Shown here: in pieces, positions 10,987 to 23,608 of the stretch | Layout of the letters: the number at the start of each line of letters is the position of its first letter | How positions within the stretch are numbered: the stretch's first letter is position 1 | Source: Hyaloraphidium curvatum | Lineage: Eukaryota > Monoblepharomycota > Hyaloraphidiomycetes > Hyaloraphidiales > Hyaloraphidiaceae | Length of the DNA: 64,000 bases | Assembly (NCBI GenBank): GCA_025558095.1 | Contig: JAIVFI010000030.1 | Coordinates: forward strand, 248,001 to 312,000 | Direction: 5' to 3' | The notes under the pieces: model-generated | What the model saw: only the letters and a program-made list of their open reading frames with translations | Told to the model about the DNA's origin: nothing | The model's database searches: none | Translations under genes and position numbers: made by a program

Positions 10987-11100
10987 GTGGTTTACCAAAA
11001 ATCAGTTGTGGTTTGAAGAAAATCACTTGTGGTTTTAGGAAAATCATACGTGGTTTGTTGAAAAACGCCTGTGGCTCTCAGATTGTCAATTGTGGTTTAC
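10987..11100 (+). repeat. 21-bp tandem repeat, 5.4 degenerate copies
   Basis: Units start at 10987, 11008, 11029, 11050, 11071 and 11092, each with GTGG followed by a T-rich then AAAAT-containing stretch. Read in the frame of an ORF starting at 10944, each unit encodes a heptapeptide of the form G-L-x-K-I-x-C. It lies at the 3' side of LINE copy B, where LINE tails often carry short repeats. Confidence 0.8.
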
Positions 11101-11494
11101 ACGGACGGAGTGGGGGCGTGAGCAGCGGCAACCGCGCAACTTCGTTGATCCCCTGCATTCGCATCACACAACACAGATCTCGTCTCTTCTGCCTCCAACC
11201 CCCGTCCGCCGCCCTGCGCCGCCCTCCAGCGCCACCCGGCGCCCATCTGCCCCTCCTCCCGCTCGGCTGCCGCCTCTGCCGCTGCCGCCGCCTTGCCCTT
11301 GCCCCACCAAACCGCTGCACATGCACCCGGGCGCCGGCCAATGCAGCTGGGCCCAGTTTGACGCTTTTAGCGAGATGTGGGCGTATCTGGCGGCTGTGGT
11401 GCCATAGACAGCTGATCAGAACGCCGTGATTCGTACGCAGGAGAGGTCACGGAGTGAAGGGCGTGCGGCGCGTCACGTCCGCTCAATCAGACCC
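11101..11494. other. Stretch without a recognised gene
   Basis: C-rich low-complexity sequence (11180-11300, proline-like codons) and a short ORF end, directly left of the copia 5' LTR. An open frame crosses it (10944-11429), but its composition gives no support for coding. Confidence 0.4.
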
Positions 11495-11706
11495 TGTTGC
11501 TGGGGATGGATGGATGTGTTTGGAGCCGTCGGATCGAGTTGGAGTTGGTCCTGGAGTTGGATGTTGGACTTGGATGGATGGGTGGATCTTGGCTAGACAA
11601 TAACCTAGGAGGGCGGCTCTAGGGAGAAGGGAATAACACAACAAACACCAGGAACGCCACCTGCCTCATCCGCACCTGTCTCTGGGCGCCTGCGACCAGG
11701 GGAACA
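11495..11706 (+). repeat. Copia 5' LTR (212 bp)
   Basis: Begins TGTTGCTGGGG and ends GGGGAACA; near-identical to 17824-18035. It contains short GGAT/GGAGTT-type internal repeats. Confidence 0.93.
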
Positions 11707-11710
11707 AAGG

Positions 11711-11734
11711 ATTAAGAGTCTCAACTGCTCTGAC
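11711..11734 (+). promoter_or_regulatory. Copia primer binding site, half tRNA-Lys(CUU)
   Basis: Four bases after the LTR, ATTAAGAGTCTCAACTGCTC is the reverse complement of a tRNA 5' half. It covers the D-stem end AGAGC, a linker, the anticodon stem TTGAGA and the loop CTCTTAAT, which contains a CUU (Lys) anticodon. The fit extends over more than 20 nt. Half-tRNA priming is established for copia-type elements; the Lys identity is my reading of the loop. Confidence 0.6.
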
Positions 11735-11771
11735 ACGTGCCTGCTACCCCTGGAAGTCCGCCCGCGACAGG

Positions 11772-13202
11772 ATGACAGCCAACGATGCCGACAAGCCTAT
11801 CCTGCTCAACACCGGTGAAAACATGGTCCAGTGGGACCGCAAGGCCCCCATCTACCTCAACAAGCTCGGGGTGTACGAGTACGTCGTCAACAACGTCCTC
11901 AGCATCGACTGGCAGCTCGAGCAGGCCCGCAAGAGGGCTGCTGAGCGCAGCAACGCTCCAGGGCTCACCGACCGGCAGAGGGATGCCATCCTTGCCGAGG
12001 AAGAGAAGGCCGCGCACTCGATCCTCACGGAACACAAGTTCAGGACGACGGCCGAAAAGGCCTACGGCGAGCTCATGTTGATGCTCGACGACGTCCTCCA
12101 GGAAGCGTTCGACGAGCCCAAGACGGCCTACGACCTCTGGATCGCGATTCACAAGAAGTTCAAAGTTGGAAAGGCGCGCTTGGTACACGCGTCCCAAGTC
12201 CGCGTAAACAAGTGGCAGTGGGACGCTTCAAAGACTGTGGACCAAAACTTCAACGAGCTGCTGAGTATCAAGTCAGAGAGACTTGCGCACAAGAAACCAC
12301 TTTCAGACTACGACGTGGCTTTGATGGTGACGTTCGCCGAAGGCTTCCCGTTCGCAGAACTCCAAGGATTCTGGGGCCGAGTCATTGACGACGACGGGCA
12401 CTTCGACGAAGACGGCAAGAGCGAGAGTATAACATTCTCATTCAATGGCATGCGGGATGCGGCTAACACAGCCCAAGGAAACAAGATGCCGCATGCACCT
12501 GTCAAGATGACAGCTCCGACGCTCCCGCTCCCGCCCCCTGCCGGATTTGGACCCGGCTTCGCTGCCTATCAGCCGCACCAACAACAAGTTCCCCGTGGTG
12601 GTGGCAACCCCAGTCGGCCTCCGCAGCGCCCCTGGTACGAGCACGGTCGCTACGCTCCGTACCCCAGCTACAGGCCGAGCGGCATGGCTCCTATCCAAGG
12701 CCAGGGCCATGATACGCGGATGCGCGGCCACGGGTTGGCACGTGGCGGCATGCGCGGAGGCCGCGGCTACTACCCCGCGCAGACACTGAGGCCGATGGGC
12801 GGCCCAAGCTACCGCCCGGCTGGTGCTGCCGTTTGGAGGCCGACTCCGGTGACCAGTGAGATCACCTGCCGCGAATGCGGCAAGCCGGGGCACGTGGCAT
12901 CGGCGTGCCCCGACAAGAAGTGCCACAATTGCAACGGCAAGGGGCACGTACAGCGCGAGTGCCCGTCACCGCCCCAGCAGCCGTACGCCATGCTGGCAGA
13001 TGCCCAGATGGAACACAGCGAGGGTGAGCATCGGGTGGTGATGTCAGGGCCGAGGTGCCCGCGCCACGAAGGGGCCGCGGTGCTCGGCGCTTGGTTGAAG
13101 AGGAGGGCCGCGGGCCCCGCGTCGCGAAGGGCCGAGGGCCAGATGCTTGAGAGGAGGGCCGCGGGCCCCGCGTCGCGAAGGGCCGAGGTGCCAGACACTT
13201 GA
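11772..13202 (+). CDS. gag: Copia Gag polyprotein
   Basis: 476 codons from an ATG 66 bp after the 5' LTR. The N-terminal half is a copia-type Gag domain (KLGVYEYVVNNVLS; YDLWIAIHKKFK; VDQNFNELLSIKSERLAHKK). A Gly/Pro/Arg-rich linker follows (residues about 240-360). Two CX2CX4HX4C knuckles come next, CRECGKPGHVASAC and CHNCNGKGHVQREC. The last 45 or so residues are encoded by the start of a GC-rich minisatellite and look like an extension by repeat growth (LERRAAGPASRRAE). The stop at 13202 ends gag well before pol, whereas many copia elements have one continuous gag-pol frame. Confidence 0.93.
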   Translation: MTANDADKPILLNTGENMVQWDRKAPIYLNKLGVYEYVVNNVLSIDWQLEQARKRAAERSNAPGLTDRQRDAILAEEEKAAHSILTEHKFRTTAEKAYGELMLMLDDVLQEAFDEPKTAYDLWIAIHKKFKVGKARLVHASQVRVNKWQWDASKTVDQNFNELLSIKSERLAHKKPLSDYDVALMVTFAEGFPFAELQGFWGRVIDDDGHFDEDGKSESITFSFNGMRDAANTAQGNKMPHAPVKMTAPTLPLPPPAGFGPGFAAYQPHQQQVPRGGGNPSRPPQRPWYEHGRYAPYPSYRPSGMAPIQGQGHDTRMRGHGLARGGMRGGRGYYPAQTLRPMGGPSYRPAGAAVWRPTPVTSEITCRECGKPGHVASACPDKKCHNCNGKGHVQRECPSPPQQPYAMLADAQMEHSEGEHRVVMSGPRCPRHEGAAVLGAWLKRRAAGPASRRAEGQMLERRAAGPASRRAEVPDT

Positions 13203-13410
13203 GAGGAGGGCCGCGGGCCACGCGTCGCGAAGGGCCGAGGTGCCAGACGCTTGACGAGAAGGGCCGCGGTGCCCTGCGCCGCGAAGGGGCCGCGGTGCCC
13301 GGCGCCTAGGGGAAGGGCCGCGGTGCCCCGCGTCGCGAAGGGCCGAGGGCCAGACGCTTGAAGAAGAGGGCTGCGGGCCCAGCGCCACGAAGGGGCCGCG
13401 GGCCCGGCGC
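13091..13410 (+). repeat. GC-rich minisatellite, about 52 bp x 6, inside copia
   Basis: Units start near 13091, 13147, 13199, 13251, 13306 and 13358, each with AGGGCCGCGG, GCGCGTCGCGAAGGG-like and GGCGC blocks. The array spans the gag stop codon and occupies the usual gag-pol junction. Confidence 0.8.
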
Positions 13411-13859
13411 GTGGAGTGTGGGGCGCGGGTTACTGGGGACCGACGGTTGAGGTTCGCGCCCCTCGGCGCGTTGGCACGCGATCGGCTGATCGAACGTGCG
13501 TGCCGACGCGGGTGTAGCGCGCGCCCAACGGTCCAAACACTCTCGGAATTCCTCGCTTGACAAACACTAACTTCCGCCTCTCCTCTTTCGCTATCTAACT
13601 TCAATCTGCTTCGTACACTCTCTGTTCATTTCGGTAAGGCGACGCCGCTGCCGAAGGTAACTCACCCGCCTCGCACCCAGATCGATCTTCATCGCAGCGT
13701 TGCCTGACAGCCTTCGGCTTCCTGGGATATGGCTCGATGGATGGTGACAGTGAGGGAGCCGATCTCAGCTATGTCGGCTACAACCACGAGCCCGGCGAGG
13801 GAGCGACCTACGGCGACGGCTTCGACTACTAACTACGTGGCGGCGGGGAGGCCGCTGTG
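13411..13859 (+). other. Copia gag-pol spacer
   Basis: No complete ORF. Near 13738-13830 there is a short open stretch in the pol frame (MDGDSEGADLSYVGYN) ended by one TAA, then LRGGGEAAV leading into the pol ATG at 13860. Readthrough, splicing or internal initiation could connect it; nothing in the sequence decides. Confidence 0.5.
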
Positions 13860-16800
13860 ATGCCGACCGTGATGGCCAACGCCGTTTCGGGGGAGGACAT
13901 CGACGGCGGCATGGTTCAAGCTCAACACGCTCGGGCATACATCAACCATGTCCGCGCGAACAACTGCGATTCCTTCTTCGATTCTGGCGCGAGTCGCAAC
14001 TCCACCAATACCCTAAGCGACCTGACCAAAGTCTACTCTATACCCAAGGTCGTTGTGCATGGACTTACGGGGCCCGTGGAGGTGTCACAGGCTGGCACCA
14101 TGTACGTGCGTTTCCGCACCAGCGGACCCGTTGTTCGGCTTGACAACGTTCTCTTCATGCCGAGCACACCGTGCCGCCTATTCTCGGAAACGGCATTGGC
14201 CGCCGCCGGCATTCGATCCAAGAACCGCTACCTGACGGACAAGCAAATGCAGAAACTGCTATACCTTGTGGACGGCACGGAGTTATGCACTCTTCCCCAG
14301 CAGAACGGCGTTTTCCCGATGTCGATCGAGGTCGTCAAACCGGGGTCAACGCTGCAGGCCATGTGGGGACTCACCGACGCAGATTTGATCCGACTGCGCG
14401 GGGTACGCATGTCACGTCTCTACGACCGTCACCTGTGGCATGCCCGGTGTGCGCACGCTCACATTGAGCGCATCCGGATAGCGCAGAGGTCGGGCGCAGT
14501 GCTTGGCCTTGAGAACGTCGATCTGGGCCCCGAGTCGGAGGTTATCGAGTGCGACGTCTGCCTGCACGCCAAGCTGACAACCGCGCCGTTCTGCCCCTCG
14601 ATGCGTGAGCACGTCAAGGATGTTATGGATCTCTGGCACGTTGACCTCAAGGGCCCGGTCGATATCACTTCCGTGCACGGCGACCGCTACTGGATGGATG
14701 TCAAGGACGAGTGGTCGCAGGAGCTTTGGTCGATCCCCCTGAAGACCAAGGACGAAGCGGCACCTCTCCTTCAGCAGCTCATCGTGTGGGCCGAGACGCA
14801 GACCGGGAAACGCCTCAAGCACCTCCAGTCTGACCAGGGTACCGAGCTCGGGCGGTGGAACGCAAGGGAGCTGGGCTGGTTCCAGACCTGGTTACGTGAA
14901 CGAGGCACTCACTTCCGGGTCTCCATAGCCGATACGCCTCAACAGAACGCGGTACCCGAACGCGAGCATCGTTCCCAGGTCGAAGGGGTACTTGCGCTCT
15001 GCATCCAGGCTGACGTCGAGAAGCGTTTCTGGAACTACGCCCTCGCATACAAGACTGAGGTCCGCAACATGCTCCCAACGGTGAAGACGATGCAACGGGG
15101 CACAAACGGAACGGTTACCACGCCGCATGAGCTGTGGACGGGGACTAAACCCGACCTGTCACGTCTCCGCACGTTCGGGTCGGAGTGCTGGTACGGCATC
15201 CTCCCCAGCCAGCGCAAGGCTCTGGACGACCGTGCACACCGTGCAATCTTCCTCGGTTTCCCGAAGCATCTGAAGGCGTACACGGTTCTGGATCTGACCA
15301 CAGGCAAGATAGTTCATGCTCGATCGGTTGTCTTCAACGAGCGCTATTCTAAACGCTCACCCGGCTCGTTCCGCGAGATTGACGAGCTGGGGAAGCAACG
15401 ACCTTTTGCTCTTGTGCATCCTCGACTTCCCCCCCGGCTCTCCAAGCCGGTGGATCCAGCGATGGATGAAGACAGCGACGATGATCAGCGGACACAGCGC
15501 AAGGATGCGGGAACGGGCCCCCAGGAATCTGCACAGCGACATGAGGCGCACGAAGCGTACGAGTGGGAGCTCCTTGAGGAAGAGATTGAGTACCCACCGG
15601 AAGCAGAGCGGGAGGAAGTGGATGCTGGCGATGGCGATGAGCCATGTGATGCGCAGCATCCCCTCGCTGGACCTGATGACGGTCTGCCAGATCCCCTCAT
15701 CATGCCCTACGCCATGATTGCGACTCCACTGACTTGCTCTCCTTCTTTTCGCTTCCCAGTCTTTGAGACGTGGCGCATTCCAGCAACGTGTGCCCCGCAT
15801 CCAGACACGAGCCCGGTGACCCTGCTGTCGGTGCATGGTGTCACCATCCCGCGCACATACAACGAATCGCAGAGGTCACCGCATGCGGCTCAGTGGGAGG
15901 AAGCGCGGCAGGAGGAGAACAAGTCGATTCTTGAGATGGGTGTGGTCGAGGAGACGGAACTCCCCACTGGTGACGAGGACAAGGTGGTGCCCTCGCACTA
16001 CGTCTACGACGTCAAGAAGGACCAGAACAACAACGTTACGCGCTTCAAGGCACGCTTGGTGGCGGATGGAAACCGCCAATCCGAGCAAACATACGACGAT
16101 ACGTTCGCTGCCGTTCCTAACCAAGTCGTTTTCCGCCTCTTCCTTCTTCTTGTTGCCACGCTGGGCCTCCTCTGTGATCACTGGGACATCAAGACGGCGT
16201 TTCTGCATGCTCCGCTGGACTACATTGTCTACATCAGGCCGCCTCCGGGATGGCGATTTCTCAAGGAGTCTTCCTCGCGCACAGTGCTTCGGCTGCTGAA
16301 GAGTCTCTATGGATTACGGCAAGCGATGCGCTTGTTCCTTGCAATGCTTGATCATTTCCTTCGCCAGGCTGGATTCGTGAAGCTGGCCTCCGAGAGCTGT
16401 CTCTACGTGCGCTTCGCGGCCGGCCGCATTATGATCGTCTTTGTCTACGTGGACGACTTGCTGGTTGCCGCCACCTCACTGCTGGAGATCGATGAATTGT
16501 TTGCCAGTCTCAAGCAGCATTTCAACATCAACTTGCTGGGCCCTGTCACTTACTGCTTGGGCGTGCACATCCGTCGCGACACCGGCACTGGTACAATCTC
16601 ATTGTCGCAGACGGCATACATCGACCGCGTCCTCCGCGACTTCGCATTCACGCGTGATGTTCCCAGCAAGGAGACAAAGTCTGCTCTCACGCCGATGCGC
16701 CCGGATGCACTCCAGATGCTGCGCCCATTCAACCCCACGGTATTTGACAGCCTGCCAACGAAGATCCAAGACGACGTCAAAAGCTTCAACTACAAGGGCC

Positions 16801-17489
16801 TGATTGGATCTCTACTTTGGATTGCTATTACAGCACGGCAAGACATTGCCTTTGCGGTTGTTTTTCTTTCTCGCTTTGCCAACAGCTTTGGGCCTCTTCA
16901 CATCAAGGCGCTTCGAGATGTTTTGCGCTACCTGCGCCGCACCCGTACCTATGGACTCGTTCTTGGTCGTCGTCCTGCGTCTGGTGATCGCTTGGATCTC
17001 TGTGCATATGCGGATGCCGATTTTGCTGGCTGTGTGATGACCCGCAAGTCGACCACGGGTCTCGTCATCCTCATGGGTGATTCCAGCATTGCCTGGCTGA
17101 CCAAGCGGCAATCCATCGTTGCACAGTCTACTACGGAAGCCGAGTATGTTGCTATGGCGCATGCAGTTCGCAACATTCTCTGGCTGCGCTCCATCCTGCA
17201 GGAACTCGGCTTTGCGCGGACGACACCTACGCGACTTTTCGAGGACAACAAGTCTGCTGAACAGCTCGCTCGTGATCCTAAGTTCCACGAGCGCACGAAG
17301 CACATCGATATCAAGTACCACCTCGTTCGCGACACTGTGCAAAATGGAACCATTGAAACTGCGCGGGTGCTGTCAGACGACAACTTTGGGGACGGCTTTA
17401 CCAAGCCTTTAGCTCCGGCCCCTTTTGACATTTTCCGTGCGCGCATTGGTGTTGTGGATCTTGATCCGGGTTCGGCTTCCAGTACGTGA
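13860..17489 (+). CDS. pol: Copia Pol polyprotein (protease, integrase, RT, RNase H)
   Basis: About 1209 codons from ATG 13860. Domains in order. Aspartic protease, with FFDSGASRNS (catalytic D-S-G). Integrase zinc domain, with LWHARCAHAH (H) and CDVCLHAK (C-x2-C). Integrase core, with LWHVDLKGPV, LQSDQGTELG and TPQQNAVPEREHR, giving the D, D and E catalytic residues. Reverse transcriptase, with DIKTAFLHAPL and the YVDDLLV catalytic box. RNase H, with YADADFAGC, STTEAEYVAM and FEDNKSA. No stop or frameshift interrupts it. Together with gag it makes a plausible autonomous element. The N-terminus before the protease is unusually short, consistent with separate expression from gag. Confidence 0.95.
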   Translation: MPTVMANAVSGEDIDGGMVQAQHARAYINHVRANNCDSFFDSGASRNSTNTLSDLTKVYSIPKVVVHGLTGPVEVSQAGTMYVRFRTSGPVVRLDNVLFMPSTPCRLFSETALAAAGIRSKNRYLTDKQMQKLLYLVDGTELCTLPQQNGVFPMSIEVVKPGSTLQAMWGLTDADLIRLRGVRMSRLYDRHLWHARCAHAHIERIRIAQRSGAVLGLENVDLGPESEVIECDVCLHAKLTTAPFCPSMREHVKDVMDLWHVDLKGPVDITSVHGDRYWMDVKDEWSQELWSIPLKTKDEAAPLLQQLIVWAETQTGKRLKHLQSDQGTELGRWNARELGWFQTWLRERGTHFRVSIADTPQQNAVPEREHRSQVEGVLALCIQADVEKRFWNYALAYKTEVRNMLPTVKTMQRGTNGTVTTPHELWTGTKPDLSRLRTFGSECWYGILPSQRKALDDRAHRAIFLGFPKHLKAYTVLDLTTGKIVHARSVVFNERYSKRSPGSFREIDELGKQRPFALVHPRLPPRLSKPVDPAMDEDSDDDQRTQRKDAGTGPQESAQRHEAHEAYEWELLEEEIEYPPEAEREEVDAGDGDEPCDAQHPLAGPDDGLPDPLIMPYAMIATPLTCSPSFRFPVFETWRIPATCAPHPDTSPVTLLSVHGVTIPRTYNESQRSPHAAQWEEARQEENKSILEMGVVEETELPTGDEDKVVPSHYVYDVKKDQNNNVTRFKARLVADGNRQSEQTYDDTFAAVPNQVVFRLFLLLVATLGLLCDHWDIKTAFLHAPLDYIVYIRPPPGWRFLKESSSRTVLRLLKSLYGLRQAMRLFLAMLDHFLRQAGFVKLASESCLYVRFAAGRIMIVFVYVDDLLVAATSLLEIDELFASLKQHFNINLLGPVTYCLGVHIRRDTGTGTISLSQTAYIDRVLRDFAFTRDVPSKETKSALTPMRPDALQMLRPFNPTVFDSLPTKIQDDVKSFNYKGLIGSLLWIAITARQDIAFAVVFLSRFANSFGPLHIKALRDVLRYLRRTRTYGLVLGRRPASGDRLDLCAYADADFAGCVMTRKSTTGLVILMGDSSIAWLTKRQSIVAQSTTEAEYVAMAHAVRNILWLRSILQELGFARTTPTRLFEDNKSAEQLARDPKFHERTKHIDIKYHLVRDTVQNGTIETARVLSDDNFGDGFTKPLAPAPFDIFRARIGVVDLDPGSASST

Positions 17490-17823
17490 TGGGCCTGAGG
17501 CCAGCGTTCTCTGCGAGCCGGACCCTGCCGGGAATCTCTGCCCGTGATGAGCCTGAGGCTAGTAGGCAGCCGTTCCTTGGTTTTCTGGGGGCGTTTTCTC
17601 TACGTGTAACTCTGGATTGTATTGTGTCTTGTACTTTCTTTGCATGTATGGTCTCTGGGGGAGCCTTGTACGGCAATTGGATCGCCCGGGCTTGGGGGGA
17701 GGTGTGACGTGCGATGTGACATCAGGGAGCCTGGCCTAGGCAGCCCGAGGAACTCAATCCCGGGGCGTGGAGGAGCACGCGGTGGGGGACTCCACTCGAT
17801 CCACTCGCCTCCAAATGGGGGAG
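17490..17823 (+). other. Copia 3' untranslated region with polypurine tract
   Basis: Non-coding stretch between the pol stop and the 3' LTR. The last bases, AAATGGGGGAG at 17813-17823, form the plus-strand primer tract immediately before TGTTGC. Confidence 0.75.
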
Positions 17824-18035
17824 TGTTGCTGGGGATGGATGGATGTGTTTGGAGCCGTCGGATCGAGTTGGAGTTGGTCCTGGAGTTGGATGTTGGACTT
17901 GGATGGATGGGTGGATCTTGGCTAGACAATAACCTAGGAGGGCGGCTCTAGGGAGAAGGGAATAACACAACAAACACCAGGAACGCCACCTGCCTCATCC
18001 GCACCTGTCTCTGGGCGCCTGCAACCAGGGGAACA
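17824..18035 (+). repeat. Copia 3' LTR (212 bp)
   Basis: Matches the 5' LTR except for A versus G in GCAACC near its end. It ends 19 bp before the ATG of the recombinase gene, so it could serve as that gene's promoter. Confidence 0.93.
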
Positions 18036-18054
18036 AAGGTCCAGGGTATCGCCC

Positions 18055-19524
18055 ATGGCCCTCGACGACGACGAGGATGTGGAGGTCGAGGACGTGCCGA
18101 TCCGATTGGCAAAACGCCCCTCGAACCGCGATCGGAAGACGGGGCAATCGATTTCGAGCAACGCACGCGCCTGGGAGCGCATCGACATGCTCATTGCATC
18201 GGGCAAAGCCAACTACCCTGGTCTGATCACCCTGGACACCAAATTTCTCGAATCCCTCCGAGATGGACAAAAGAACAATGGCGATCGGTTCTCTCCCGTG
18301 AGCATCCTTCAGTACCACTCGCACGCATGCTTGCTTGGGCGCCTTGTCGTGGCAAAGAAGCGCGGCATTGCGCGGGAGAACACCTTCCTAGAAGTCCCGA
18401 CGGATGACCGCGATGTTCAGACCTACCGTGAATGGCTTCGGTACTACCCGATCGACCGTCTCTGGCGCACTGTTGAACGCCACACGGCCAGCTTTGCCAG
18501 TCAATCAGTCTTTGCCGTCACCTTGCAGAAGCTCTTTACGCTCCTTCGCGGATCGCCAGATCATGCGGACCCCATGTTCTTTGGCGAGAAGATCAAGGAA
18601 CTGGCGAAGCTCACTAAGAAGCAGAAGGCACTGCAGCTTCCGCAGCTAAGCGGCTCGGATCTCCAGGTGGAGTATCGCCTGCTCCGTCAAAAGGTGGAAA
18701 GCTTCGCCCGGGATGTTCTCACGCGATACGAAACGGCGTCACCGGACGTAGTGCGCCGCGGGCTAGGAGACATCCAAGCGGCGACCATTTGTGCAATCTA
18801 CGTACTGCATCCACCAAGCAGATCTGACTACGCTTTCCTTCGCTTCACGCCCACGAAGAACACCAATTTTTACGACGGCGGAGAGGATTGCATTGTCCTC
18901 AACAACTTCAAAACAGCAGCCTCCATCGGAAGGACGTACGTCAAGGTGGAGAACGAGCTTGTCCGACGCCTTCTGCATCTGCTCGTTGATCGGATCCGCA
19001 GCCAGGACGGCGACCGCTACGTGTTCCAAAGTCGCCCGGGCAAGCCGTTTTCGACGGAATCGGGTTTCGGACAGCATGTGGGCCACTGCTTCAAAAAGGT
19101 CACAGGCGACGCCCTGCGCCCGACTTCATTGCGCCGCTTGTACATCAGCTTCCACGCCTGCGGCACCGTCGACGAGAGCGGCGAACATTGCGTGCCTAGA
19201 GCCGAGGAGAACGCTGTCCTCGCCCGAAGCATGATGCACAGTGCAGCCCAACAGGCAACGTACCGTCGACAGCCATCATTGCAGCACATCAAGTCCACGC
19301 TCCCGGTGAACGACCCGATCGTGCCTTCCACCACGACCGCTGCCGCGCTGGACGCCGTTGAGCGCATGCAAGCTGTGCAGGGAGGCGACAGTCGGGAGCA
19401 GCGTCTGGCGTGGGAACAGGCGAAGCGGGATTTGGTAAGGAAAGCGGTAGAAATCGATGAAGCGCGCGAAGCCGCGGCAAAACGCCACCGTGAGCGTCTG
19501 CATCAGAGGCGGCTGTCAAATTAG
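18055..19524 (+). CDS. Tyrosine recombinase (integrase-like), eukaryotic mobile-element type
   Basis: 489-codon single-exon ORF. The C-terminal half shows the tyrosine-recombinase constellation: Arg256 in PPSRSDY, Lys286 in LNNFKTA, Arg360 in TSLRRLYISF, His395 in ARSMMHSA and the likely nucleophile Tyr403 in ATYRR. The His of the usual H-x-x-R box is Thr here. The P-P-x-R-x-D-Y box and following N-x-K-T strand resemble recombinases I associate with eukaryotic DNA transposons and large DNA virus relatives (Crypton/Ngaro-like grouping); this is family memory, not a search. Residues 1-230 are helical and would be the core-binding region. The acidic start (MALDDDEDVEVED) lies 19 bp after the copia LTR, so a longer original N-terminus may have been cut off. 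The tail has repeated E/A/R residues in a coiled coil. Confidence 0.75.
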   Translation: MALDDDEDVEVEDVPIRLAKRPSNRDRKTGQSISSNARAWERIDMLIASGKANYPGLITLDTKFLESLRDGQKNNGDRFSPVSILQYHSHACLLGRLVVAKKRGIARENTFLEVPTDDRDVQTYREWLRYYPIDRLWRTVERHTASFASQSVFAVTLQKLFTLLRGSPDHADPMFFGEKIKELAKLTKKQKALQLPQLSGSDLQVEYRLLRQKVESFARDVLTRYETASPDVVRRGLGDIQAATICAIYVLHPPSRSDYAFLRFTPTKNTNFYDGGEDCIVLNNFKTAASIGRTYVKVENELVRRLLHLLVDRIRSQDGDRYVFQSRPGKPFSTESGFGQHVGHCFKKVTGDALRPTSLRRLYISFHACGTVDESGEHCVPRAEENAVLARSMMHSAAQQATYRRQPSLQHIKSTLPVNDPIVPSTTTAAALDAVERMQAVQGGDSREQRLAWEQAKRDLVRKAVEIDEAREAAAKRHRERLHQRRLSN

Positions 19525-19536
19525 CCAGGGAAGGTG

Positions 19537-19995
19537 TCAAAGGAGCCGTTCTCCGCAGTAGATGTCGGCGAGCTCACGATCTTGCATCATGTCTTGCGCA
19601 ACGATGCGGAGGACCGTGAGGAGGCCGCGACGCCAACTCAGTGACCATTTGTTGGCGGGGGAGGTCAGGAGAGCAAGAACGAGTTCGTGGTTCCTCACCC
19701 AATCAAACGTGCGTGGGATGTCGCTCCATGAGAGCGTGGCGGCGACGTGCATGAGGCGTTTCCACGTTTTGCGTTCCGCAAGATCCCCACTGACGTGGCT
19801 GGCGGCACAATGGAGTCGGCAGAGCAGCATGAGACGGCGTCGGTAGGTGAGTTGCGTGGATGTCGACCACACGTACTCCTTTCCGCCGGCCTCCATCAAC
19901 AAGGAGATCGGATGCGTTGCGATCGCTGTTTTGTCGACCGCGGTCTGGGCCGGGCGCCCGAAGCGGGTGGCTTGCTGCGGTTCCGCCTCAGCCAT
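19537..19995 (-). CDS. Small helical protein, putative family member 1
   Basis: 152 codons from ATG 19995, convergent with the recombinase (12 bp between stops). I recognise no known domain. It has a pattern shared with three neighbouring ORFs: VWSTSTQLTYRRRLMLL early, then a middle helix ending SDIPRTFDWVRNHELVLALL, then W-R-R-x-L-x3-L-R-I-V-A-x-D and a closing LADIY. All-helical, with many W, R and L and no membrane segment. The partial likeness to core-binding domains of tyrosine recombinases is an inference. It is head-to-head with the ORF starting at 20063. Confidence 0.55.
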   Translation of the reverse strand: MAEAEPQQATRFGRPAQTAVDKTAIATHPISLLMEAGGKEYVWSTSTQLTYRRRLMLLCRLHCAASHVSGDLAERKTWKRLMHVAATLSWSDIPRTFDWVRNHELVLALLTSPANKWSLSWRRGLLTVLRIVAQDMMQDRELADIYCGERLL

Positions 19996-20062
19996 CGTCT
20001 TGTGCTGCAATCTTGTCGGCTATCGGAGGATGTTTTTCATCGCGGTTGGACGGAGCAAGGCC

Positions 20063-20533
20063 ATGGGGCGTTACGACGATGAGCTAGCGGACGTGGTGTT
20101 CAAAGCTGCGCAAATTGCAAATTGGAGTCCGAGCACAACTTTATTCAACAAACGACTGGTTCGATGCATTGCCGCGTTCTTCACGGCCGCCCAGCGCTTG
20201 AAGCAGGAGGGCGTGACAAACCAGGACTTCTTCGTGCTCCAGCGTCTCGCACGCCGCATTCGCGGACCCTTCGACACGACCGTTCTTCGCCGACCCAAGT
20301 TCTTCAAATGGCTGATGAAGAAGTCCGGGTGGGCCGACACTCGGATACGCAATGCGAGGCATGCGATGGGTGTAGCAGCTCATGCTGCGTTTGGGGCGGG
20401 GGCAGATGAGCCGTTTGCAAAGGCACCGAAACGTATCCGGCGTGTCGAGAAAGTGACCCTCGTCAGCAAGCGACGGCGGCGGCGTCAGGCGGGGGGAGCG
20501 GCCGAGGTTGCGGTGGAGGCGAGCGAGGCTTGA
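20063..20533 (+). CDS. Small helical protein, putative family member 2
   Basis: 156 codons from ATG 20063; an in-frame ATG also exists at 20030. The shared pattern is present: IANWSPSTTLFNKRLVRCIAA early, LQRLARRIRG in the middle, then PKFFKWLMKKSGW and IRNARHAMGVAAHAAF. The C-terminus is very basic (KRIRRVEKVTLVSKRRRRRQ), a probable nuclear localisation or DNA-binding tail. Its last 49 bp overlap the 3' end of the convergent ORF at 20485-20934. Function unknown. Confidence 0.5.
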   Translation: MGRYDDELADVVFKAAQIANWSPSTTLFNKRLVRCIAAFFTAAQRLKQEGVTNQDFFVLQRLARRIRGPFDTTVLRRPKFFKWLMKKSGWADTRIRNARHAMGVAAHAAFGAGADEPFAKAPKRIRRVEKVTLVSKRRRRRQAGGAAEVAVEASEA

Positions 20534-20934
20534 CGGTGAAGGCGTTCCTGAAAGCTCTTCTCGTTGTAAGCGGTCGCCAGGTACGGGTCGTGCAAAACGA
20601 GATCACAAATGATCCCCAGGGTCACAAACGCTTGTCGCCGCCATTCTCTGCGGTGGGGGTTGCCGTCCGCGTTCAGAATCCAGTCCAACGAGACAACGTC
20701 ACGCGCAAAGTTGAAATCGTCCGGCAGGTCGACGTCCTTCGACTGGCGTGCCAACTCGTCAACGTCGTCGAACGAAAAGCCCTCGTCTCGTTCCTGCAAA
20801 CGAAGCGCAGTGTAGGCGGCATGCAGCTTGGCCAGGTGGAGCGACGCAGATGCAACCTTTTTCGTCGTGCTTTCGCTCCAGAGAAGTTGTTTTCCGGCTT
20901 TTCGCATGGCCTTGGCGTACGCTGCGGAGGCCAT
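20485..20934 (-). CDS. Small helical protein, putative family member 3
   Basis: 149 codons from ATG 20932-20934. Pattern: LLWSESTTKKVASASLHLAKLHAAY, then VDELARQSKDVDLPDDFNFARDVVSLDWIL, then EWRRQAFVTLGIICDLVLHDPYLATAY. The order and spacing of the W-S-x-S-T motif, the L-A-R...P-x-x-F block and the closing D-P-x-L-A-x-x-Y match the ORF at 21000-21488 well. No known domain recognised. Tail-to-tail overlap with the ORF at 20063. Confidence 0.55.
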   Translation of the reverse strand: MASAAYAKAMRKAGKQLLWSESTTKKVASASLHLAKLHAAYTALRLQERDEGFSFDDVDELARQSKDVDLPDDFNFARDVVSLDWILNADGNPHRREWRRQAFVTLGIICDLVLHDPYLATAYNEKSFQERLHRQASLASTATSAAPPA

Positions 20935-20999
20935 GGTTGTGTCAAACGTGACTTGGAAATTCCACGTCCTCTCCGGGCGGCGGCGCCCTGCTTCTTAGA

Positions 21000-21488
21000 C
21001 TAGTCCATGTCGTCGGGCATATCTGCGAAGTCCCCGATGGCGACCGGCGTCGGAGGCGTTGACGGCTGTTGATCCCCTTTCTTCAGGTTTCGAACCGAGT
21101 ATCGGCTTGCGAGAACGGGATCGGAGAGGAACAATTCGGCTGCGAGGCGGAGGGCCGAGATGGACGAGCGCACGTAGCTGGGGCTCCCACCCAACCTCGC
21201 AATGATGCCCAGGACGACGTCGCGTTGACGAAGCCAACCAAAGTCCCGGGGCAGGGAAGACCGGGGTAGGCGACGGGCAAGGTCGTCAATGAGAGCCCAT
21301 CCCTCCTCCGGGATCTCGCCGGGCTCGACCGTGTCGAGGCGCGATCTCAGCCGTCGAAGGGCGACAAATAGCGCGCAAATGCGACAGAGACGGGCGCCGT
21401 AGCTGTAGGCGGATGATTTGGACCATTTGGCGGCCTTGGCCACGCGGGAGATGCTTCGTTCGATGAGATCGGGCTCCGCGGATGGCAT
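21000..21488 (-). CDS. Small helical protein, putative family member 4
   Basis: 162 codons from ATG 21486-21488. Pattern: AAKWSKSSAYSYGARLCRICALFVAL, IDDLARRLPRSSLPRDFGWLRQRDVVLGII, then SYVRSSISALRLAAELFLSDPVLASRY. This is the clearest member of the putative family, with an acidic C-terminal tail (GDFADMPDDMD). Same strand as the ORFs at 20485 and 21528, in a loose tandem with 39-65 bp gaps. Function unknown. Confidence 0.6.
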   Translation of the reverse strand: MPSAEPDLIERSISRVAKAAKWSKSSAYSYGARLCRICALFVALRRLRSRLDTVEPGEIPEEGWALIDDLARRLPRSSLPRDFGWLRQRDVVLGIIARLGGSPSYVRSSISALRLAAELFLSDPVLASRYSVRNLKKGDQQPSTPPTPVAIGDFADMPDDMD

Positions 21489-21527
21489 TGACGTGACCGG
21501 CGAAAAAGCCGCGATCGACGCACACGC

Positions 21528-22142
21528 TCAGCCCCACGCAAAAGACACCCAGCACCCTCTTCTTCGTTTCCTCGGCCGCGCTTCGGCTTCATCGTCCGCT
21601 TCCCAGTCATCCACCAAAGCTTCGATCTCTTGGAGTCGCACTATCTGGCGATCGATGTCGGCAATGAGTCTACTTGTTTCCCGGTCATGGTCCTCCAACC
21701 ACCGCTGCCGGCGTCGCGCGGCGTCTTCGACCACCCGGGTGCGCTCCGTACGCAGCTCTTGAAGCTGCGAGGTGGGATCGGTCGGGTGTTGCTCGTCGTC
21801 CTGGAGATCGAAGCAAGATCGGAAGGCCGTGAGAACCGCGTCGTCGAGCACAGCAGGCTCAACAAACCGAATCGCCGAACGGCGGTTTCGATCGATGACA
21901 CGGCGGTAGAGGCAGATGGGTTGGAATTCTCGGAAGAGGGCGGCCACGCGTCGAGCGAGGTCGTCGTCGTCGGTGAGGGAGGCACCGAGGAGCTCGGCCA
22001 GCTTGTTTCGATGCACGCCTTCGCGCGGATAGGGTGGCTGGTTGGAGGTGAGGTGGTTCAGGTTCGACCAGCCGATCAGCACGCGCTCGGCTTCCAAAGC
22101 CTGACCGCGATCGGCGAAGGCAGCTCGCACTACATGATCCAT
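21528..22142 (-). CDS. Coiled-coil protein with basic tail, accessory island
   Basis: 204 codons from ATG 22140-22142. The N-terminal half (to about residue 110) is mixed helical with EAERVLIGWSNLNHL, distantly like the W-S motif of the neighbours. The second half is a long charged coiled coil (LQELRTERTRVVEDAARRRQRWLEDHDRE and following heptads). It then has an acidic patch (DDWEADDEAE) and a basic cluster (RPRKRRRG), a candidate nuclear signal. No family recognised. It lies 39 bp upstream of the ORF at 21000-21488 on the same strand. Confidence 0.5.
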   Translation of the reverse strand: MDHVVRAAFADRGQALEAERVLIGWSNLNHLTSNQPPYPREGVHRNKLAELLGASLTDDDDLARRVAALFREFQPICLYRRVIDRNRRSAIRFVEPAVLDDAVLTAFRSCFDLQDDEQHPTDPTSQLQELRTERTRVVEDAARRRQRWLEDHDRETSRLIADIDRQIVRLQEIEALVDDWEADDEAEARPRKRRRGCWVSFAWG

Positions 22143-22723
22143 GTCACAATGCGCGAAGCGTTCGGCTGGGGACGATCACGGTCGACCCGTCGGACGCGGT
22201 CAGCAGGACGCATTGCCGCACGGTGGACAACCTGCCGGCCTCTGCTTCGACGGAGCGGTCGATCTGGAACAAGTTTCTGGGAGTCAACGACGATTTCTTT
22301 TGGTTCGTCCGCCCCACAAATAGATGGCATTTTCTGTTCCACAGTTCAGCAAATGCAGAGCGACACCAGAAGCTCAGCAAATGCAGAGCGATGCCAGAAG
22401 CTGCAGACCAGACTGGAAGCACTGGGCCGCAAGTGGAAAATGGAGACCTGGCTCTGGGCTCTTAGCATCAAGGAGTTCTCGACCAGCCCAGAATCAAATT
22501 GAGGCAGCAGAAGGAGAAGGTCCTCAACTCTATTGCAGTGTTGTCTCAAAGTCCACGAAGGACATCAGAAAACTGGGAAAAGAAAAAGTCTAGTAGTGAG
22601 CTGAAAGCAGGAGTTGGTACAACCACGAGCAAAACACCTACGTTCCCGGCATGTGCCATACAGTGCCATGCACTCCAGTGAGCACGACCAACTTGTCCAA
22701 AGCAGGATGTGTTCTGTTGCAGT
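22143..22723. other. Stretch without a recognised gene
   Basis: Short open frames only, on both strands. It contains a two-copy 28-bp repeat (22346-22401). This is the likely edge of the accessory island, since the next gene is a normal housekeeping gene. Confidence 0.4.
22346..22401. repeat. 28-bp direct repeat, two copies
   Basis: TCAGCAAATGCAGAGCGA... occurs at 22346-22373 and 22374-22401 with two mismatches (ACA versus ATG region). Confidence 0.75.
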
Positions 22724-23608
22724 TTATACTTGCAGTGATCTTTGCACAATACCTCGGACCTTCGCATTGAATGCGCCACGGTCTTCGCGATAGAGCTTCT
22801 GCCGCAGATATGGGGTATGGTAAACTCCCTGCAATAGCCGATGCCACGCTTGGCTTACAGAAGCATCAATGTTGGCTCCACTCTCGTCGTTTGGCTCAGC
22901 AAGCATGGATACAACGCTGAGCAAAATTTTCTCTATGCTCTGAACTGGGCTCCAGCGCTCGTTGCTTGACTCGTACTGGTTCGGGTCTTCCCCTGGAGGA
23001 TGCAGAATGGAGATGCAGACGCGCCCATCCGCATAGACGTTTGGATGAAACATCTCCCCTGAAGTGGATATCAGGTTGAGGCACCAACGCGCGAATGGAC
23101 GAAGAAGCACCTGTGAACCGCATAACCTGTGGAGGTAGGTCAGATCCAGGTAGCGCTTTGCCCGTGGAACACCAACTGGTGGACTCAGTGGGTAGTCCTT
23201 GGGAAAGTGTAACGTGGCCTCAAAGATCCCTCCCTCGTATGGCGTCTGAGGAAATGTCCGCGGCGGAAGCGTTGGAGCAGCCATCGCCGCATTCATGGGA
23301 ACAAACTCACGCCTTCGGGCCCGCTACGCGACAATCAGCGTCGCACGGGTCCGTGACGGGTGACGGGCGGCGCTACCTTATCAGTGCCTCCCACTCAAAG
23401 TAATTGTCCTCCGACATGGGGCCTGTTGACCATGGCTGTGTCAACTGTTCTGCCGACGAGCCGAATTCCCGTTTTACCAGCCGTGATCCCCTCCGGCGGG
23501 TTGACAGTCAACTCTGGATGATGGTGACGACGAATGAACGACACGCTCGCACGAAGCCTAGTCGCACGGACCTCGGTACTCGGTCATCAGCCGGCGAAGA
23601 GCGGTCAT
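22724..23608 (-). CDS. UBC7: Ubiquitin-conjugating enzyme E2, UBE2G2/Ubc7 type
   Basis: Start ATG at 23608. Exon 1 reads [12 protein letters not shown], then an intron, then [13 protein letters not shown], an intron, [14 protein letters not shown], an intron, and [23 protein letters not shown]. The catalytic region reads [23 protein letters not shown], with the HPN motif and active-site Cys. The Ubc7/UBE2G acidic-loop extension after the Cys is present ([16 protein letters not shown]). Further match: [22 protein letters not shown], and the C-terminus [15 protein letters not shown]. Family role: E2 for ER-associated degradation, working with Hrd1- or Doa10-type ligases at the ER membrane. Head-to-head with AP2S1. 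Confidence 0.9.

Follow-up and report, generated by a model that had tools for sequence, protein, structure and literature searches.

A cluster of six open reading frames (ORFs) in a 64,000-nucleotide window of the Hyaloraphidium curvatum genome (C30:248001-312000) is not a free-standing island but belongs to an endogenous virus, of which it forms the integration end. The cluster encodes a tyrosine recombinase (YR), four small paralogous proteins (A to D) and a coiled-coil-like protein (E). In the window, i.e., the whole stretch of DNA analyzed, it belongs to the truncated remains of an endogenous virus, nucleocytovirus- or polinton-like, that was broken by a copia retrotransposon. It is considered probable that the six genes make up the integration cassette of an endogenous virus with a double-stranded DNA (dsDNA) genome, of the nucleocytovirus or polinton-like kind, with YR integrating and excising the viral genome and the helical proteins A to D acting as DNA-binding accessory or regulatory factors. 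Contig labels used in the following (C8, C10, C11, C26, C30 and C35) all refer to one 32 Mb assembly.

Cassette copies and their viral neighbours

The preliminary description of the locus regarded the absence of other such clusters as an argument against its interpretation. A genome-wide search recovered two collinear copies, comprising the same six genes in the same order and on the same strands, at C26:375766-379931 and C35:105662-109801. Their YR proteins are 65% (C26) and 64% (C35) identical to that of the window copy. Between C26 and C35, nucleotide identity amounts to 94% over 10.2 kb, followed by shorter matching blocks further on with non-aligning intervals between them.

In both of these copies, a gene encoding an A32-type packaging ATPase is located directly to the right of E (Pox_A32, E=3.3e-11, 43.6 bits, cut-off 22.8). 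The same ORF also matches the PHROG terminase large subunit (E=9e-9), and within the genome it is confined to the C26 and C35 cassettes. Beyond the ATPase gene, further compact ORFs without convincing family match were observed, as well as a very large ORF featuring a Prim-Pol domain (E=2.8e-10) and a D5-like helicase region (D5_N, E=9e-4, 20.0 bits versus a cut-off of 22.4). A second ORF with primase-helicase similarity is located further right at C26:401579-405712 (1377 aa; D5_N, E=9e-8; DUF5906, E=8e-7). It lies past a Zn-cluster gene, and viral remains on C26 thus reach beyond 393.7k. A search of IMG/VR with the A32 and primase-helicase sequences returned no relatives. Since the cassette in C26 and C35 adjoins genes for viral packaging and replication, the window copy represents a fragment of a larger provirus. 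Of the two options named in the preliminary description, a mobile element or an integrated virus-like cassette, the latter is borne out by these viral neighbours, while a self-contained element does not fit a cassette that runs straight into packaging and replication genes.

To the left of YR, F-box-like genes were found. The interval between the presumed viral terminus and YR (C26:374109-375406 and C35:102605-105421) does not align between the two copies and harbors one or two F-box-like genes; judged from these sequences, it is a variable gene slot adjoining the integration cassette. Moreover, the ORF at C35:125647-126366 (starting MGAAVSTQ) possesses a myristoylation-like N-terminal start and a C-terminal membrane helix; its resemblance to myristoylated membrane proteins of viruses was judged by eye only. 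The assignment of this ORF as an L1R-like protein, likewise made by eye, was dropped as Pfam gave no support.

More divergent sequences related to the cassette are present on C8 and C10. The C8:518-555k region contains a divergent YR (C8:527.7-529.1k, 29-31% identical), several F-box-like ORFs, methyltransferase-like and C2H2 repeat ORFs, a serine beta-lactamase-like protein (E=4e-35) and, at C8:550.5-551.8k, one small paralogue and an E-like ORF adjoining each other. This region is possibly a larger, more divergent provirus. On C10, degenerate tandem YR copies were detected: a tandem array at C10:594.9-603.1k consists of units of approximately 4 kb that are 99.3-99.8% identical, each containing, in addition to transposon fragments, a YR gene that is degenerate and has an internal TAG.

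The recombinase and the small paralogue family

All six ORFs listed in the preliminary description are present in the window at 18055-22142, and for none of them was a confident Pfam match obtained. The YR gene (18055-19524, plus strand, 489 aa) ends twelve bases short of the stop codon of the convergently oriented gene A (19537-19995, minus strand, 152 aa from ATG, isoelectric point (pI) 9.4). A and B (20063-20533, plus strand, 156 aa, pI 11.4) have divergent starts. B, the most divergent family member, features a basic C-terminal tail, and its gene overlaps the 3' end of C (20485-20934, minus strand, 149 aa, pI 6.5) tail-to-tail by 49 bp. To the right of C follow D (21000-21488, 162 aa, pI 9.3) and E (21528-22142, 204 aa, coiled-coil-like with a basic tail), both on the minus strand. 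Thus, A, B and D are basic proteins, while C is not.

The identification of YR as a tyrosine recombinase was corroborated by its Cre/Xer-like fold, its catalytic residues and the PF00589 match of a homologue. In a structural search with the predicted YR model, Cre, XerA, XerD, XerH and viral type IB topoisomerases formed a coherent group with Z values of 6.3-8.1, and Cre, Xer and viral topoisomerase IB entries made up the majority of the top 31 matches. The alignment to Cre spans YR residues 78 to 398. Candidate catalytic residues R256, K286, R360, H395 and Y403 are invariant across four copies. Furthermore, the YR homologue on C8 (29% identical, E ~1e-37) matched Phage_integrase PF00589 over profile positions 49-166 with E=0.0018, which is under the curated cut-off. 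Recombinase activity is plausible. The YR proteins of the window, C26 and C8 gave no Pfam match to DUF3435 at E up to 10. Relatives of YR were found neither in IMG/VR with the YR alignment nor in one GTDB scan, and tblastn of YR against phages gave no matches.

The common ancestry of the four small proteins, previously proposed from motifs aligned by eye, was confirmed by hidden Markov models (HMMs) that were each built without one group and then scored on the group left out, with 3,900 shuffled sequences as control. E-values of 1e-23 to 1e-24 for D, 1e-18 to 1e-19 for A, 1e-16 to 1e-23 for C and 1e-6 to 1e-10 for B were obtained, far beyond the best shuffled sequence (E 0.04-0.15). None of the other ORFs of the provirus pieces matched the family HMM. 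With D as query, the genome-wide search retrieved A and C as well as their copies, with E-values between 1e-9 and 1e-3. The reported motif order also holds, since the W-S-x-S-T, P-x-x-F-x-W and D-x-x-L-A-x-x-Y blocks align and B lacks the last of these, as had been noted. The family core consists of W-S-x-S-T, a long helix, I-D-x-x-A-R-R-L, L-P-x-x-F-x-W-L-R and S-x-R-R, followed by D-x-x-L-A-x-x-Y in A, C and D. Four residues (W22, A43, P80 and D123 in D numbering) are invariant in 13 of 13 family members.

The AlphaFold2 model of D is all-helical, with a predicted local distance difference test score (pLDDT) of 78 and a predicted template modelling score (pTM) of 0.71. Ferritins, globins and RbcX appeared in the structural match lists for D and were set aside as generic helical matches with low Z values (best 5.3). 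The best Pfam match of the small proteins, DUF5955 (E=0.014), is below the cut-off, and searches of PHROGs, NCBIfam, PDB and BFVD gave nothing convincing; paralogue A had no relatives in IMG/VR. Judged from these comparisons, A to D appear to form a genuinely unassigned protein family that matches nothing in the libraries searched. Linkage to YR, size, charge and co-conservation suggest that they are probably DNA-binding accessory or regulatory proteins, although the fold predicted for D did not match any known DNA-binding protein.

A specific version of this interpretation, which we regard as a tentative option, is that A to D arose as independent proteins from the core-binding domain at the N-terminus of YR, occupying recombinase half-sites and modulating synapsis or direction. 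It is consistent with the top profile-profile alignment, in which the WSxST-helix of A to D coincides with the SPVSI-helix in the core-binding region of YR, and with the parallel order and lengths of helices in the AlphaFold models of D and YR. However, the weak score of this alignment was equalled by 6 of 200 column shuffles, so that it serves as a lead only. Moreover, the family HMM misses YR, and neither structural nor profile searches with the small protein yielded a YR. More speculatively, and to be rated as rather doubtful, the cassette might belong to a previously undescribed lineage of fungal DNA viruses that integrate by means of one YR and four co-evolving, catalytically empty paralogues with an origin in a core-binding-like domain, jointly setting site choice and direction of recombination.

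Left end, copia insertion and loss in the window copy

The left boundary initially assigned to the locus proved too narrow, as viral DNA begins at approximately 11,105, with a copia element in between. A left-terminal provirus remnant at 11105-11483 is approximately 65% identical to sequences on both other contigs (C35:101930-102262, over 379 bp; C26:373535-373761, over 242 bp), both located 2-4 kb upstream of the respective YR genes. Window positions 11100-11310 match only C35:101930 and C26:373535 within the genome; with relaxed scoring, the similarity spans approximately 11113-11483. In all three loci, similarity ceases at a common point within approximately 30 bp. Left of it, each locus contains unrelated transposon sequence; in C35 this is a MULE-like gene, in C26 and C30 it consists of other repeats. 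These alignments are best read as placing the provirus terminus at the shared left end, 2-4 kb before YR. The exact breakpoint in the window is uncertain, given the identity of only 65% in this part of the window copy.

Circular permutation of the provirus was considered, as a protein left of the C35 end recurs at C26:415-418k with 44% identity in opposite orientation. This idea was dropped because the protein is MULE transposase-like (sub-threshold Pfam match) and marks transposon sequence outside the left end. Large MULE-like transposase ORFs that are 41-44% identical were observed at C35:98003-101131, C26:415099-417972, C8:494227-496776 and C11:143781-144669, so that members of this family are found near three of the viral regions.

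The copia long terminal repeat (LTR) retrotransposon (11495-18039, plus strand; pol ORF 13857-17489) is located between the left remnant and YR and now joins them. Its LTRs (approximately 11495-11711 and 17824-18039) are 99.5% identical over 216 bp. The flanking sequences, GACCC on the left and AAGGT on the right, do not constitute a target-site duplication, which suggests that recombination between copia copies may have deleted the intervening part. On the right side, homology of the window to C26 and C35 ends just past E, at 22175, and dispersed repeat fragments (22196-22588), which match C26:371.9-372.1k and C10 repeats, occupy the place of the viral sequence that continues with the packaging ATPase in the other copies. 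A host gene for a ubiquitin-conjugating enzyme follows outside the element (22724-23323, minus strand; UQ_con E=6e-26). Protein E of the window lacks approximately 37 N-terminal residues present in its C26 homologue; this segment has a sub-threshold similarity to T5orf172 (E=0.18) and is possibly T5orf172/GIY-YIG-like.

These ends also bear on an alternative explanation, according to which the six genes are a self-contained Crypton-like or Starship-like YR transposon that in C26 and C35 was incidentally taken up by a virus. In Starships, the YR gene is the first gene at one end. The arrangement in the window conforms to this, as YR occupies the first position at one side of the cluster and points inward, only the six genes and the left remnant are present, and homology to C26 and C35 ends straight after E. 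However, the remnant at 11105-11483 lies outside the six genes and matches sequence 2-4 kb upstream of YR, so that the shared unit exceeds the cluster, and the repeats right of E indicate an eroded end rather than a defined terminus. Cryptons and Starships likewise use a YR as mobility enzyme. Cryptons are short elements with defined ends and YR as the only or main gene, whereas the homologous unit described here includes a distant left remnant and viral genes. In contrast to Starships, the present YR is tied to viral packaging and replication genes and does not match DUF3435. A transposon origin of the cassette is accordingly considered unlikely.

Selection, proposed function and related viruses

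Ratios of nonsynonymous to synonymous substitution rates (dN/dS) were calculated by NG86 for C26 versus C35 and amounted to 0.13 for YR, 0.06 for A, 0.11 for B, 0.17 for C, 0.12 for D and 0.10 for the A32 gene. These values, in the range of 0.06-0.17, indicate that the genes evolved as functional proteins, which according to the sequence comparison would most simply have occurred in separate viral lineages that each integrated. Between the window copy and the others, synonymous sites are saturated, yet all frames are open.

Domestication of viral genes by the host, for example for antiviral or DNA-processing functions, could account for the survival of six open frames in a short remnant beside a housekeeping gene; it is nevertheless very unlikely, since the three copies resemble separate viral lineages and not host orthologues, and E is truncated in the window and frameshifted in C35. 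Even less credible is a host segmental duplication of one old fossil with meaningless open frames, as the 94% identity between C26 and C35 might suggest, because differences in YR and A to D are concentrated at third codon positions with the low dN/dS values given above, the left flanks differ, the F-box interval and the 385.6-389.2k interval are unaligned, and the much more divergent C30 copy is still open.

For the endogenous virus, the following gene order from the left is proposed: terminus, a small membrane-protein gene and F-box genes, YR, A to E, packaging ATPase and primase-helicase. For integration and later excision, YR would act on a viral attachment site close to the left terminus and recombine it with host DNA; the recombinases of phaeoviruses and polinton-like viruses (PLVs), located near element ends, offer a precedent for this role. 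Proteins A to D, whose genes adjoin YR in three of three collinear copies, may function in the manner of directionality factors, or as independent relatives of the YR core-binding domain. In the window copy, copia activity would have deleted part of the left side; everything to the right of E is missing, and the six ORFs are still open.

Several results weigh against this interpretation. Major capsid profiles PF04451 and PF16903 and the VLTF3 profile PF04947 had no matches in the genome, although control genomes were equally silent, which leaves the absence of these genes unproven, and no obvious capsid candidate was seen among the ORFs in the 20-25 kb of provirus inspected, to which PLV capsid profiles were not applied. 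A search for a core attachment duplication between left and right regions yielded nothing clearly above shuffled expectation, the right ends being undefined. Linkage between YR and the paralogues is not universal, as the small paralogue on C8 is located 22 kb from YR. Furthermore, the predicted fold of D has no convincing structural match in PDB and BFVD, the YR model is modest (pLDDT 66, pTM 0.39), and the first His of YR box II is replaced by T or A. The latter is a position at which substitution is tolerated in tyrosine recombinases.

Among known systems, phaeoviruses (Ectocarpus EsV-1 / endogenous viral element (EVE)) carry a YR near one end of their integrated, nucleocytovirus-type genomes, and a structural similarity to XerH (5JJV) has been described for it (PMC13236599); XerH is also matched by the window YR. 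The available text of that source mentions no family of four small paralogues and concerns another host group, and at the present loci no CC core or attachment repeats could be demonstrated. PLVs likewise feature a YR beside element ends, together with a packaging ATPase, a primase and superfamily 3 (SF3) helicase and, in some members, GIY-YIG nucleases (Yutin et al. 2015, PMC4642659). The 20-25 kb inspected here fall within their size class of 14-40 kb (PMC12220804). In contrast to PLVs, no PLV capsid gene was seen at the present loci, PLV capsid profiles not having been applied; the YR is too divergent to be assigned, and a four-paralogue cassette is not described in the available sections of PMC4642659. 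The endogenous giant virus region of Rhizophagus irregularis resembles the present loci in that remains of a large DNA virus occur in a fungal genome without a detectable major capsid gene (PMC10640383). That region lacks A32 and D5 and its description mentions no recombinase or integrase, whereas A32, D5-like and YR genes are present here.

Matches to Zn(2)Cys(6) (PF00172, E=2e-5) and to Fungal_trans (PF04082, E=3e-6) were obtained for ORFs near the proviruses, and host genes in the window are interrupted by introns; a fungus, or an organism closely related to fungi, is the probable host. As of 2023, dsDNA viruses infecting fungi were known only as fossils (PMC10640383). At least three integrated copies, with YR, packaging ATPase and paralogues under purifying selection, are present in this genome with its fungal-type transcription factors, which indicates viral lineages that were functional. 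Moreover, the cassette adds a new protein family linked to a eukaryotic viral recombinase and provides a testable case for the control of integration and excision in large eukaryotic DNA viruses.

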